The translations under genes were made by a program, and so were the position numbers. DNA of 36,987 bases from Kiritimatiellota bacterium (lineage in GTDB: Bacteria; Verrucomicrobiota; Lentisphaeria; Oligosphaerales; JAADHN01). Below, piece by piece: positions 4,091 to 29,967 of this stretch. The notes under the pieces are model-generated. The model was not told the DNA's origin. It saw only the letters and a program-made list of their open reading frames with translations, and searched no databases. The first letter of the stretch is position 1, and each line of letters opens with the position of its first letter. The stretch spans positions 1 through 36,987 of the forward strand of contig JAADHN010000063.1 in assembly GCA_013151865.1 (NCBI GenBank). The letters run 5' to 3'.

Positions 4091-5200
4091 TTACGGAACG
4101 GCGCCCCGCCGACGGAGGACGCCGCGCACCTGCCGCAACCCATCGAGCAGGTCCGTGATTGTGGGCAACGGTGTACGCCAGGGACGCGCCTGAAACTGCT
4201 CGACCGGCATGACCAGGCGCGAAACGCGTAAAGCCAACTGTTCGGTGGCCGGCAGGACCGCACCGCAGACTTGGCGGGTCAGTCTTGCCGATTCCACACG
4301 CCGCCCGGCCTCGAGAGCCAAACGCCCCCGCAACCAAGTCCCGGAAATCGACGTACCGTCAGACGGTTCGACGGAGAACAACAGACGCGAAATGTCCCTG
4401 CGAACCGCGCTTGGCAAACGGTCCCAATTCCGGCAAAGCCCGGCTTCCAAGGAACGACATTCAACCGGTTGTCGGCTCCCGAAAATGCCGCGCACCCATT
4501 CCCTCAAGCCGGTGAAATCTCCTCCGGCGACACGGCGATCCAGCACGACCGCGGCGTTGTCGGGGGACAGTCTCCGGATCTCCGCCAAGCGCTCGAGTGC
4601 GATCCTCGGACTTTCAACGACCGCCCGGTCGTAGGCAACGCTCAAGCGCTCGAGGGCCCGACGCTTCTCCTCGACGCGCAACTTCTCGAGCCGGCGTTCC
4701 AGGCGCGCGGTCCAAGCGTTGTATGCCGGGGACTGCAACACTACGGCGAATTCCCGCACGGTTTTCAGCGCGGCGTCGAGTTCGGCACTGGTCGAATACG
4801 GGCGTTGCCGAGAAACCTTCCGGAGGACACGCAGGCCGGCAATCACACGTTCGCTGCGGGCAATCAGTGGGGAACGCCCGAATCGAGTTTCCCAGTCGTC
4901 GAGGAGGCTTTTGGCGTCATCGAGGCGACCGGCTCGAAGCAACACATTCAAACGCCGTTCGAACTGTCGTTCGCGGACGTATCGGATTCCGGTGTCCGGG
5001 AGTGGGGTCTCCGGATAGACGTCCCGCAGACGTTCAAGCAGTTTCAGCGCTTGCGGATCGTCGCCCCGGGCCAACGCGTCCAGCGCTTCCCGCAGGATCT
5101 GCCCCGGAATCGGGTCGTACCGGACAGCAGGCGTTCGCCCACACCCGGTGAGCAACACCGACATTCCAACACAAATCATACAGAAAAAAATCGACAGCAA
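4091..5200 (-). CDS. Lipoprotein with helical, TPR-like body, unknown role
   Basis: The 369-residue protein starts with a hydrophobic segment ending in a lipobox (LLTG-Cys20), so it is predicted to be lipidated by signal peptidase II. The body is rich in Leu, Arg and Ala with repeated helical stretches such as ALDALARGDDPQALKLLERL and LLRAGRLDDAKSLLDDWE, suggestive of TPR-like repeats. I do not recognise a named family. The longest frame uses TTG at 5200; ATG at 5179 would leave a very short signal sequence, so the start is uncertain. It lies upstream of the parvulin gene in the same orientation, and both products are envelope proteins, so joint expression is plausible. Confidence 0.75.
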   Translation of the reverse strand: MLSIFFCMICVGMSVLLTGCGRTPAVRYDPIPGQILREALDALARGDDPQALKLLERLRDVYPETPLPDTGIRYVRERQFERRLNVLLRAGRLDDAKSLLDDWETRFGRSPLIARSERVIAGLRVLRKVSRQRPYSTSAELDAALKTVREFAVVLQSPAYNAWTARLERRLEKLRVEEKRRALERLSVAYDRAVVESPRIALERLAEIRRLSPDNAAVVLDRRVAGGDFTGLREWVRGIFGSRQPVECRSLEAGLCRNWDRLPSAVRRDISRLLFSVEPSDGTSISGTWLRGRLALEAGRRVESARLTRQVCGAVLPATEQLALRVSRLVMPVEQFQARPWRTPLPTITDLLDGLRQVRGVLRRRGAVP

Positions 5201-5282
5201 CTGGCAATACCTCGGGCAAACCGCATACTGTACCGTGTCTTGGCCCCCAGGCCAATCGGGAATAACGGCAAAAGTGACCCGT

Positions 5283-5289
5283 CAGTCTC
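5283..5289 (+). repeat. Target-site duplication, left of MITE copy A
   Basis: CAGTCTC directly precedes the left inverted repeat and recurs at 5486-5492 directly after the right one. The shared string can be extended to CAGTCTCG (8 bases) because the element itself starts with G. Confidence 0.7.
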
Positions 5290-5485
5290 GAGCCCGTCCA
5301 CAAAGGGCGCGGATGCTTTCGGACGATCTTTCGCCGTTTCCCCCTCCCGCCGAGCGGGATTACCGCTGAGGGCAGCATCGCCTGCCTGTGCGGGGCACGC
5401 AGACAGGCCGGATCCTGCTCGGCGGGAACGAAATCTCACCCAAAATCGCACTCGCGCGCCCATGCACCCTATTGTGGACGGGCTC
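5290..5485. mobile_element. MITE-like non-autonomous element, copy A
   Basis: This 196-bp element has terminal inverted repeats starting GAGCCCGTCCACAA; 14 bases are perfect, and the similarity continues to about 21 with one indel. It is flanked by a 7-8 base direct repeat (5283-5289 and 5486-5492). The interior is highly palindromic: CCCGCCGAGCGGG pairs with the later CTGCTCGGCGGG, enclosing a second stem built from CCTGTGCG and CGCAGACAGG. There is no credible ORF. A close copy lies at 29736-29937 in opposite orientation with a different flanking duplication. This is the expected pattern for a non-autonomous element moved by a transposase encoded elsewhere. Confidence 0.8.
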
Positions 5486-5492
5486 CAGTCTC
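5486..5492 (+). repeat. Target-site duplication, right of MITE copy A
   Basis: CAGTCTC follows the right inverted repeat directly, matching 5283-5289. Confidence 0.7.
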
Positions 5493-5639
5493 GGGGGACC
5501 GAATCGCTGCTGCCGTCATGATCGTGGCCGCCATCGCGGTTACGGTCGATTCCGATTTCGATGCGGTCTCGATTTCGAGTCGGTCCCCTCTACACGTGAC
5601 TGAACCGGTTGTTGGCAAACCAAAGAAAGGACGGTCGCT

Positions 5640-6374
5640 ATGGCAGTCTTGCGTGCGGACAAGCGGGGGGACGACGAGTTGCGTCCAGTCTCGTTTGAAC
5701 TCGATTTCCTGAAGCACCCTCTCGGATCGACGGTTATTCGATGCGGCAATACTCGAGTCCTATGCAGCGTCAGCGACGTCCCCGGCATTCCCGGCTGGAT
5801 GCGCGAACAGCAGGTGCCGGGCGGATGGCTCACCGCAGAGTATCGGATGCTGCCCGGGGCCACCCCGGAACGGGCGCGACGGCAGGTCGTCGGACCGGGC
5901 GGCAGGGCGACGGAAATCCAACGACTGATCGGTCGGTCTCTCCGGGCCGTGGTCGACCTGACGCAGATCGGCCAGCGCACTTTGTACGTGGATTGCGATG
6001 TCCTCGACGCGGACGGCGGCACACGTTGCGCGGCCATCACCGGGGCGTCCATCGCTCTGGAACTGGCCTTGCGCCGGCTTTTCGTCGAGAGTCGAATCAG
6101 CACGTGGCCCCTGAAGACCCGCGCGGTCGCGGTGAGCGCCGGAATCGTCGAGGGACGGCCCATGCTCGATCTCTGTTACAGCGAGGACGCGGCCGCGGCG
6201 GTCGATATGAATGTTGTCATGACCGCCGAAGGCAATTACATTGAAATCCAAGGCACGGCGGAAGAAACACCGTTTTCCGCCCCGCAACTGGATCGACTCC
6301 TGGCGCTGGCGCGCAGCGGCGCCGCACGACTGGCCGACCTGCAGAGACAGGCCATCGACGCCCCGGCGCCGTGA
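5640..6374 (+). CDS. rph: Ribonuclease PH
   Basis: The 244-residue protein matches RNase PH over its whole length: RGDDELRPVSF near the N-terminus, GGWLTAEYRMLPGAT, the hallmark GRATEIQRLIGRSLRAVVDL, and the catalytic-region DCDVLDADGGTRCAAITGA. It is a phosphate-dependent 3'-5' exoribonuclease that trims tRNA and other RNA 3' ends, normally as a hexamer of dimers in the cytoplasm. Length is usual for the family. AAAGGA (5627-5631) sits 8 bases before the ATG. The RdgB/HAM1 pyrophosphatase gene that often follows rph is absent; a secreted protein of unknown role follows instead. A MITE copy lies 155 bases upstream. Confidence 0.96.
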   Translation: MAVLRADKRGDDELRPVSFELDFLKHPLGSTVIRCGNTRVLCSVSDVPGIPGWMREQQVPGGWLTAEYRMLPGATPERARRQVVGPGGRATEIQRLIGRSLRAVVDLTQIGQRTLYVDCDVLDADGGTRCAAITGASIALELALRRLFVESRISTWPLKTRAVAVSAGIVEGRPMLDLCYSEDAAAAVDMNVVMTAEGNYIEIQGTAEETPFSAPQLDRLLALARSGAARLADLQRQAIDAPAP

Positions 6375-13417: not shown

Positions 13418-15514
13418 TCAACGTGCTTGCTGACCCGCATCGTCGTCCGCCTGCAATCGGCAACCCTCCAAGACGAGACCGGTGATGTGGTACGCCACGC
13501 AACGACCGGTCACGATGATCGCCTCGCGTCGCGCCCGGGCCACGCGGACCCGGGTCCGCACGTCCTTGAACTCCTCGGGCGGGAAATAACATTGAATGCG
13601 TTTGCCGAAATCGACACGGCAACGGCCGGCCGTCTCACTGTCCCCGGTCGGAACGCCGCGAATCGTCAGTTCCCGCCCGGTCAGTCGCCGCTTCAGCTCG
13701 ATGCCGCTCGTCATCCGGAAGAGCCGCTCCAATTCAGCCACCGTAAACGTGTCCTGTCCGGCCTGCCGCTCCGGAGCGCCGGGCCCGCCCTCCCTCCCTG
13801 CCGTCTGTGCCTCCTTGGCGGCGCCCCGCTGCGCTCGGGCTGGAGGACCGACGATGTCGTCGCCGAAAAGAGTGGGGCCGGCGGAAGCCCCGGCTGTCGC
13901 TCCCGAGCGACGCCCGACGCCCGCCGCAAAGCGTGCAGCCAATTGCCGCGCCGCCTTCTTGGACAACGGTCCAACGCCGGCAACCTGCGCTTTGGCATAC
14001 CGCCGGGTTTGCAAAGGTGTTTCGGCGAGCAACACGTCGCCGTTGGGCTCGCGGCGAACCAGCATACCGAATCGCTCGCCGCCGTTGACGAGTTTGACAC
14101 GCGTGTCCGGAACCCAGAACCCCAGCGTGAGTCGTGCTGTCTGGCCGGCACTGACGCTGACTTTCCGGGTCTGCACGCCGGCGAGCGGGTGCCGGACCGA
14201 CACGACATGTTCGCCCTGGACCAGACCGGGGACATTCAGCGGCGCCGAAATCCCACCTCCTTTTCCGGACGGAACAGTCGTCCCCTTCGGATCGCCGTCG
14301 ACCACAACTCCGCAGCCCGCCGGTCGAGTCGCCACCGCCATTGCGCCGAGTGCGGATTTCAGCTCGACTCGCAGCCGCTCGCCACGAATGGGATTTACTT
14401 CAGCGCGCACGGTCTGCGGCACGAACCCCAGCGCCACCAGCCGCAGCTCCTGCTTGCCCGCAGGCAGTCCGCGCAACACGACGGGCGTACGTCCGAGCAC
14501 CTGAGTGCCCTTCAGGACCGCGGCGCCCGGCGGGGCAGACTCCACCAGGAGCATTCCGGGCCGAAGGCGCAATTCGTACGGCGCGGTCGGTAGGGCCCCC
14601 GGCACCAGGATCTGCCGGACCAGCGGTTCGTATCCATCGAGCACAAGACGGACCCGATGGCGTCCCGGCGCCAACCCGCGCAGCACCAACGGCGTTTTCC
14701 CCACCTGTTCCCCGTCGATCTCGACCGAGGCCCCGGCCGGTTTGCTTTCTACAACCCCCAGGATAGCCGCGACCGGGGGCCTCGGCGCCGGTGCACCCCC
14801 CGCAGCTGCCGCTCCGTTCTTGGGGACGGCGACCTTCTCCGTCGCACCCGCCTCTTTCGACACAGGCGGTGCGCTCGGCGCGCCCGGCGCAAGCGATATT
14901 GGCGGCAACGGATTCTTGGGAGGTTCCAAGACCTTGGACGCACCCGGGGCAATCGATGCCGCTGCGTCCGCTTTCGAAATTGCGGACTCCGCAGGCGCAG
15001 TCGAGGCAGCCGCCTGAGTCGCTTCCCGATCCCCACCATCCAACGGAGTCCGGAAGGCAGCGATCAAGCCTGCAATTCCCGCACCCAAGAGCAGAAAAAC
15101 CAAAACGGCCCGAAACCAGGGAAACGATGCGGACTCGACTCGAGGCGGCTCGGGGCCGGGGCCGACCCCCCCCATGGCATCGCGCGGGATCGATTCGACG
15201 TGCAGCGCTGCGGGATCCACGATCCCGGTGTCATCGGAAAAAAGCAGAAGTTGCCGGCAAATCCCGATTCGGTCGCCCGGTTTGAGAACAGAGACGCGGT
15301 CGATTCGCTTCCCGTTCACCCGGACGCCATTGGTGCTCTTCAGGTCCTCGATAAACCATTCGTCGTTCTCGCGGTAAACCCGGCAGTGACGGCGAGAAGC
15401 CCCCTCGTCTTCCAAGACCAGATCGTTGTCGGCGTCCCGCCCGATCCCAAAGCCGTCGGGCTTCAAATCCAGGGTCCGACCCTGATACCGCCCGCCGAGG
15501 TATCGCAGCTTCAT
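13418..15514 (-). CDS. FHA - membrane helix - triple PEGA - OB-fold protein
   Basis: This 698-residue protein starts at ATG 15514 behind a strong AAAGGAGAA (15530-15522). Residues 1-92 form an FHA phosphothreonine-binding domain with GIGRDADNDLVLED, SRRHC and the TNG turn (61-63). A single membrane helix lies at about 133-154, then an Ala/Pro-rich linker (155-250). Three PEGA-type repeats follow (about 252-318, 320-386, 390-466; SKPAGASVEIDGEQVGKTPL, SAPPGAAVLKGTQVLGRTPV). The C-terminal 580-698 resembles the OB-fold tRNA_anti-like domain (LTGRELTIRGV, RIQCYFPP, IIVTGRCV, GLVLEGCRL). The FHA half should be cytoplasmic and could read kinase-phosphorylated partners; the PEGA/OB half should be periplasmic. 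A Hanks-type kinase occurs at 29968. It is upstream of comEC on the same strand (74-base gap). Confidence 0.85.
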   Translation of the reverse strand: MKLRYLGGRYQGRTLDLKPDGFGIGRDADNDLVLEDEGASRRHCRVYRENDEWFIEDLKSTNGVRVNGKRIDRVSVLKPGDRIGICRQLLLFSDDTGIVDPAALHVESIPRDAMGGVGPGPEPPRVESASFPWFRAVLVFLLLGAGIAGLIAAFRTPLDGGDREATQAAASTAPAESAISKADAAASIAPGASKVLEPPKNPLPPISLAPGAPSAPPVSKEAGATEKVAVPKNGAAAAGGAPAPRPPVAAILGVVESKPAGASVEIDGEQVGKTPLVLRGLAPGRHRVRLVLDGYEPLVRQILVPGALPTAPYELRLRPGMLLVESAPPGAAVLKGTQVLGRTPVVLRGLPAGKQELRLVALGFVPQTVRAEVNPIRGERLRVELKSALGAMAVATRPAGCGVVVDGDPKGTTVPSGKGGGISAPLNVPGLVQGEHVVSVRHPLAGVQTRKVSVSAGQTARLTLGFWVPDTRVKLVNGGERFGMLVRREPNGDVLLAETPLQTRRYAKAQVAGVGPLSKKAARQLAARFAAGVGRRSGATAGASAGPTLFGDDIVGPPARAQRGAAKEAQTAGREGGPGAPERQAGQDTFTVAELERLFRMTSGIELKRRLTGRELTIRGVPTGDSETAGRCRVDFGKRIQCYFPPEEFKDVRTRVRVARARREAIIVTGRCVAYHITGLVLEGCRLQADDDAGQQAR

Positions 15515-29524: not shown

Positions 29525-29729
29525 TCGCAGGTGTCCAGGAAGGCCCCTCGTGCATCCCCCTGGCGTACGAGTGCAAGCCGGCCCGGCTTCTCGCATCGGC
29601 ATGACTGTGGAAATCTCTGCTTGGGACAACGTCGCCGGCCATGAGCCGCCGCCAAGTCGCGGAAGTCTCCCGGCGCTCGTGCGAGACCCCGGGGGCTTCC
29701 TCGGGGCTCCTCTGACTGGCTCCATCCCA

Positions 29730-29735
29730 TGACTG
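29730..29735 (+). repeat. Target-site duplication, left of MITE copy B
   Basis: TGACTG directly precedes the left end of the element and recurs at 29938-29943 directly after the right end. With the ambiguous G it extends to TGACTGG (7 bases). A further TGACTGG occurs at 29713-29719. Confidence 0.6.
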
Positions 29736-29937
29736 GAGCCCGGCCACAAACACATAAGGGAGCATGGCCGCGCGCGAGCACGATTTTGGTGAGATTTCGT
29801 TCCCGCCGAGCGGGACCCGGTCTGTCTGCGTGCCCCGCACAAGCAGGCGATGCTGCCCTGAGCGGCAATCCCGCTCGGCGGCAGGCGGAAACGGCGAAGG
29901 ATCGCCCGAAAGCGTCCGCGCCCTTTCTGCCGGGCTC
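29736..29937. mobile_element. MITE-like non-autonomous element, copy B
   Basis: This 202-bp element is the reverse complement of the element at 5290-5485 with most positions identical and a few indels. The ends start GAGCCCGGC on both sides. The interior keeps the nested palindrome (CCCGCCGAGCGGG with CCCGCTCGGCGGG). It is flanked by TGACTG on both sides, a different duplication from that of copy A, showing independent insertion. No ORF of its own. It lies between the likely promoter and the ribosome-binding site of the kinase gene. Confidence 0.8.
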
Positions 29938-29943
29938 TGACTG
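29938..29943 (+). repeat. Target-site duplication, right of MITE copy B
   Basis: TGACTG matches 29730-29735; it ends 8 bases before the GAGGAGA ribosome-binding site of the kinase. Confidence 0.6.
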
Positions 29944-29967
29944 GTGACTAGAGGAGAAGATCGACCG

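Follow-up and report, generated by a model that had tools for sequence, protein, structure and literature searches.

Bacterial MITEs such as RUP, Correia/NEMIS, ERIC, Nezha and others are described as short, non-coding elements with TIRs and target duplications, present in many, mostly intergenic copies (PMC2229807; PMC10969869). As far as the account in PMC2229807 goes, most of them are A+T-rich with TA ends, and for most bacterial repeats the transposase is not identified. The elements described here have the same general architecture, and here too no transposase was found among the families searched; set against most bacterial MITEs as portrayed there, they differ in being G+C-rich, in having no TA end, in what is best read as an 8-bp duplication at a CTAGCTAG-like site, and in their mosaic interiors. 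A second point of comparison is offered by tyrosine transposases that are flanked by long TIRs, since these TIRs form repeat families in several bacteria (PMC3733652), which, like the present elements, are self-complementary, TIR-only repeats dispersed in the genome. We find that the present family is a MITE family of the ordinary kind, new in a Lentisphaerota lineage and, as far as the literature searched shows, first described here: the search returned no MITE family of Lentisphaerota, and nothing on Lentisphaerae that combined insertion sequence with inverted repeat. A MITE family is thereby documented in a little-studied phylum, its exact ends and target preference make masking and annotation possible in other genomes, and its missing transposase becomes a concrete search target.

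The window, that is the whole stretch of 36,987 nucleotides that was analysed, is one entire contig (C9) of an assembly of 6.21 Mb in 176 contigs. It holds two copies of the element, termed A and B, with the following features.

5290 to 5485, minus strand: copy A, the entire element; 196 bp with the shared outer G/C included (end comparison, A/B alignment, BLAST, flank analysis)
5283 to 5290, no strand: putative target duplication of copy A, left, CAGTCTCG (flank comparison; 8 of 8 bases, register shifted by one base)
5486 to 5493, no strand: putative target duplication of copy A, right, CAGTCTCG (flank comparison)
5290 to 5303, plus strand: terminal inverted repeat of copy A, one end, GAGCCCGTCCACAA (pairs with the other end in the fold)
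5472 to 5485, minus strand: terminal inverted repeat of copy A, other end (sequence comparison; folding)
5381 to 5407, minus strand: 27-bp hairpin module inside copy A, CCTGTCTGCGTGCCCCGCACAGGCAGG (pattern matches, copy comparison)
29736 to 29937, plus strand: copy B, whole element, 202 bp, orientation opposite to A (A/B alignment, BLAST, flank analysis)
29729 to 29736, no strand: putative target duplication of copy B, left, ATGACTGG, 7 of 8 bases equal to the right one (flank comparison)
29937 to 29944, no strand: putative target duplication of copy B, right, CTGACTGG (flank comparison)
29821 to 29847, plus strand: 27-bp hairpin module inside copy B, 2 mismatches to that of A (pattern matches)

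The first-pass annotation had described copy A as a 196-bp stretch with terminal inverted repeats between two CAGTCTC flanks, and copy B as its counterpart in opposite orientation with different flanks of its own; both descriptions hold. CAGTCTC lies directly outside both ends of copy A (5283-5289 and 5486-5492), an extra G at 5290 and 5493 lengthens this direct repeat to CAGTCTCG, and the inverted repeat GAGCCCGTCCACAA is perfect over 14 nt. Without the shared outer G/C the element measures 194 bp and reads AGCCC...GGGCT, the canonical orientation of the family being the minus strand at this copy. Copy B is bordered on either side by TGACTG (29730-29735 and 29938-29943), and its terminal repeat, which covers the outer 9 nt, is less perfect than that of A. 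Between A and B complementarity is 91% over 146 nt, and BLAST finds 86% identity over positions 1-196 of A. Copy A sits between divergent genes, with a reverse-strand open reading frame without Pfam match (4091-5200) on one side and a forward RNase PH gene (5640-6374) on the other, and copy B stands upstream of a reading frame for a Ser/Thr protein kinase, some 30 bases ahead of its likely start at about 29968; judged from these positions, both copies might affect the adjacent genes.

When copy A was compared with the assembly by BLAST, at least 59 matches were obtained at E <= 10 and at least 43 at E <= 1e-10, counts that are a lower bound, 40 of 106 first-look candidates having been scored. 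The terminal motif AGCCCGGCCACAAAGGGNGCGTG, with up to 3 mismatches, gave 56 matches in the 6.21-Mb assembly and its reversed control none, so that the repetition greatly exceeds what chance would give. The same motif occurred once each in five of 196 other genomes of the class, no more often than the control there, so that the subfamily of the window is confined, among the genomes compared, to its own genome. The terminal inverted repeats are (G)AGCCCGGCCACAAAGGG and common to all copies; 8 to 15 of the outer 18 nt are identical between the two ends (19 copies), and the hand-anchored copies, whose ends are the same throughout, measure between 31 and 468 bp. Among 19 copies examined there is no reading frame that stays open in every one, and 11 of the 19 lengths are not multiples of 3. 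Eight of 22 copies lie within long open frames, as against 815 of 1016 random stretches of the same loci in an admittedly crude comparison. The copies have diverged from one another, and present-day activity is no part of the evidence. Exact matches to the terminal patterns were absent from IMG/VR, and a 22-mer of the core had no match in the GTDB r220 collection, in which the own genome is perhaps not included. Four contigs of the own genome (C46, C107, C125 and C169) start, and one (C45) ends, inside the element, so that assembly was probably interrupted by the repeat and the copy numbers given are too low. We also noted two palindromes of about 31-33 bp in which two ends are fused without clear duplication (L035, contig C31 at about 5276-5308; L075, contig C172 at 14748-14778), which are perhaps relics.

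In the alignment of copies the element is bounded by AGCCC...GGGCT, and a direct repeat of 8 bp adjoins it on the outside. Among 22 two-ended copies, 10 had at least 7 of 8 flanking bases duplicated and 15 at least 6 of 8, compared with 2.4% and 8.9% when left flanks were paired with the right flanks of other copies, the P values being descriptive since this set was chosen and anchored by hand. Five of the 27 own-genome copies listed were dropped for one unanchored end; by eye, two of these (L006, L031) look like 6 of 8, two (L020, L084) show no duplication, and one (L038) has a single end in the list. When ends were paired automatically, 24 pairs resulted; with a single fixed register, 10 of them reached 6 or more of 8 (null 6.5%). 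Seven of the 22 copies match at 4 or 5 of the 8 bases, which counts against the MITE reading; some of these copies have lost the duplication or arose otherwise. The flanking 8-mers vary from copy to copy with a common preference for C..G and for A at position 3, and the duplicated ones favour C at position 1, A at 3, C at 5 and G at 8, which is near CTAGCTAG. Neither inconsistent ends nor identical flanks, both of which the first-pass annotation had named as signs of mere segment duplication, were found in the whole-genome comparison. Judging from these alignments, the most fitting reading of the direct repeats is a target-site duplication of 8 bp at a site resembling CTAGCTAG; the duplications proposed earlier are real, and their length, then put at 7-8 bases, settles best at 8 bp. 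We consider it unlikely, though worth weighing, that the outer G...C is part of the element (GAGCCC...GGGCTC), which would leave a 6-bp duplication in place of the 8-bp one and its C......G preference. The bases adjoining AGCCC...GGGCT are indeed G and C in most copies; however, with a 6-bp duplication the far bases, at the start of the left 8-mer and the end of the right 8-mer, should be ordinary flank, whereas a count by eye shows a frequent C at the former (13 of 22) and a frequent G at the latter (14 of 22), and for genome G034 and for copy A the 8-mers agree once the register is moved by one base.

Related elements are present elsewhere in the order. In G001, what first showed as a weak match turned out to be an entire element that has the ends GACCCCGTCCAGAAAGG and is flanked by the 8-bp duplication CTCGTTAG; when this element was used as query its interior was shared with the window family (E 3e-9). 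G001 and G002 are the Lentisphaerae MAGs SI037_bin151 and B1Sed10_208R1, and all 8 stretches with the exact end pattern in the public genome collection come from these two. With up to 3 mismatches the end pattern was present in 11 of 47 genomes of the order (45 matches in G002, 9 in G001, and 3 each in G011 and G034), the controls giving 3 in all. The relatives in these four genomes, which belong to other families of the order, have the ends GACCCCGTCCGGAAAGG or GACCCCATGCGAAAAGG and the same architecture; no other genome among those compared is of the same family as that of the window. Seven of 15 anchored copies among the relatives show at least 7 of 8 duplicated bases (null 2.9%), a list from which one two-ended G002 locus without visible duplication (L165) was left out. 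Several elements in G002 and G011 measure 44-57 bp and hold little beyond two ends, which places them below the range of 70-300 bp that PMC3733652 gives for MITEs. Perfect 8-bp duplications flank two such elements, L177 (46 bp) and L230 (52 bp), and duplications of 7 of 8 bases flank L162 and L166, so that elements consisting of hardly anything but their two ends seem to have moved.

What is observed, then, is a set of defined ends, many copies, copy-specific duplications, internal length variants and relatives of the same architecture in the order. Because the ends are consistent genome-wide, the duplications are specific to each copy, no frame is conserved and relatives exist elsewhere, the mobile MITE-like family proposed by the first-pass annotation is well supported. 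In our view A and B are very probably members of a MITE family, non-autonomous DNA transposons moved in trans by a DDE-type transposase. Inverted ends, duplications of fixed length and the absence of a protein point to cut-and-paste by such an enzyme in trans, and it is from these that we infer both the agent and its mode of action. The transposase would come from an element now absent from the genome or unassembled in it, would recognise the ends AGCCCGGCCACAAAGGG and insert at CTAGCTAG-like sites, and its staggered cuts at the target would leave the 8-bp direct repeats.

A transposase gene with GAGCCC-type ends, as anticipated in the earlier reading, was looked for and not found among the transposase families searched. 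No facing pair of ends 1-3 kb apart was seen by eye among the own-genome matches listed, and the single DDE_Tnp_1 locus of the own genome has ends that differ from those of the MITE. Transposase_mut (IS256-type) genes are present in 6 of 47 order genomes, and the loci scanned were without MITE ends; a derivation from the IS256 family was rejected, since the ends at these loci differ. ISL3-type genes were found in 18 of the 47 genomes; 30 loci were scanned, not all with a clear end pair, and none had MITE ends. The clear ends at these loci are GGCTCTTCGAC, GGCTCATCGGGG and TTCTTCGACGG, and since they differ, an ISL3-family derivative was likewise rejected. The stretches with single ends in G001, G002, G011 and G034 yielded further MITEs and no autonomous partner. 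That no transposase with MITE ends appeared in the DDE_Tnp_1, Transposase_mut and ISL3-type searches is counted against the DDE explanation. As a separate observation, one contig of the own genome, C50 (L104, L184, L189, L192), carries both the only DDE_Tnp_1 element and a broken gene for an IS256-type transposase; considering the genome size of 6.2 Mb and the abundance of MITE ends, few transposases were found.

One could ask whether a RAYT/TIRYT-type tyrosine (HUH) transposase, and not a DDE enzyme, spread the elements as REP-like or TIR palindromes, given that they are palindromic and mostly extragenic, that many G002 elements of 44-57 bp are two ends joined, and that TIR repeat families have a TIRYT precedent (PMC3733652); we hold this to be very improbable. 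The 8-bp direct repeats are specific to each copy, in the own genome and in the relatives alike, whereas the RAYT/TIRYT REP/TIR repeats are marked by having no target-site duplication. HUH transposases of the IS200/IS605 group are not known to make target duplications. A conserved GTAG tag was not seen. Unlike the TIRYT families as characterised in PMC3733652, the present family has direct 8-bp duplications and lacks a match to the TIR motif GGGGWSAS, its ends reading outward GGGGTC or GGGCTC and then the duplication.

Least credible is a reading in which segmental duplication has multiplied a regulatory element or a structured non-coding RNA that was kept for its fold, a reading which could draw on strong predicted folds (z about -6.5 on both strands) and on the placing of B just ahead of the likely kinase start and of A between divergent genes, with possible effects on neighbours, but which is at odds with duplicated flanks that differ in each copy, a covariation term of 0 with double changes in 3 of 30 predicted pairs (18 copies), the absence of an Rfam match in the window and interior modules that are freely present or absent. 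Copy A does fold well on both strands (z -6.65 and -6.41); since covariation is lacking in 18 copies, the fold is explained by the inverted repeats, and the folded transcript that had been suggested from the nested palindromes was rejected, there being no covariation, equal folding of both strands and no Rfam match.

Returning to the MITE family, longer copies such as L004 (468 bp) and L012 (452 bp) carry, beyond the part shared with A and B, several more short palindromes and then the right end ...CACGCCCCCTTTGTGGACGGGCTC. In A, B, L006 and L011, GTCCGCGCCCTT is joined directly to the right end, and the junction falls at CCCTT, which is present on both sides of the missing part; for this reason these four may be read as one internally deleted form that multiplied. 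The window copies therefore look like internally deleted forms of longer elements of up to about 468 bp, as far as such junctions can tell. The interior is a mosaic: of 28 module copies, 15 contain the 27-bp hairpin, as CCTGTCTGCGTGCCCCGCACAGGCAGG or a variant of it, 12 lack it precisely and 1 has it in truncated form. In the own genome the hairpin, with up to 3 mismatches allowed, has 11 matches, every one of them within a copy of the element. Elsewhere in the order the hairpin has 27 matches in G008, 7 in G003, 6 in G015, 2 in G009 and 1 in G044 (controls 0), and in G008, G003, G009 and G015 it is embedded in at least 3 other, unrelated repeat contexts (L064-L070, L194-L224). Very small nested mobile repeats, tiny hairpins that sit inside other repeats and are precisely present or absent, were reportedly described from cyanobacteria by Elhai and colleagues in 2008; these resemble the 27-bp module and not the MITE itself, and differ from it in sequence and lineage. 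It is conceivable, and we suggest it with reserve, that a superfamily of non-autonomous elements extends across several families of this Lentisphaerota order and is moved by a transposase that needs only two ends of roughly 20 bp, with elements of 44-52 bp transposing with perfect 8-bp duplications and larger ones hosting hairpin repeats that are smaller still and move from one repeat family to another, unrelated one. The elements of 44-52 bp would help to define the least DNA that a transposase needs.

Two further repeats were noted on the way. In the window, positions 313-504 and 1168-1359 form a 192-nt direct repeat, 82% identical and 855 bp apart. Another dispersed repeat of the own genome, which starts AGCCTGAANNATGCATGA, was seen at L051 (1703), L062 (1824), L076 (771) and L087 (1217), and three MITE copies (L010, L051, L087) have gone in at the edge of this repeat, where they show (C)TAGCCTG-like duplications.
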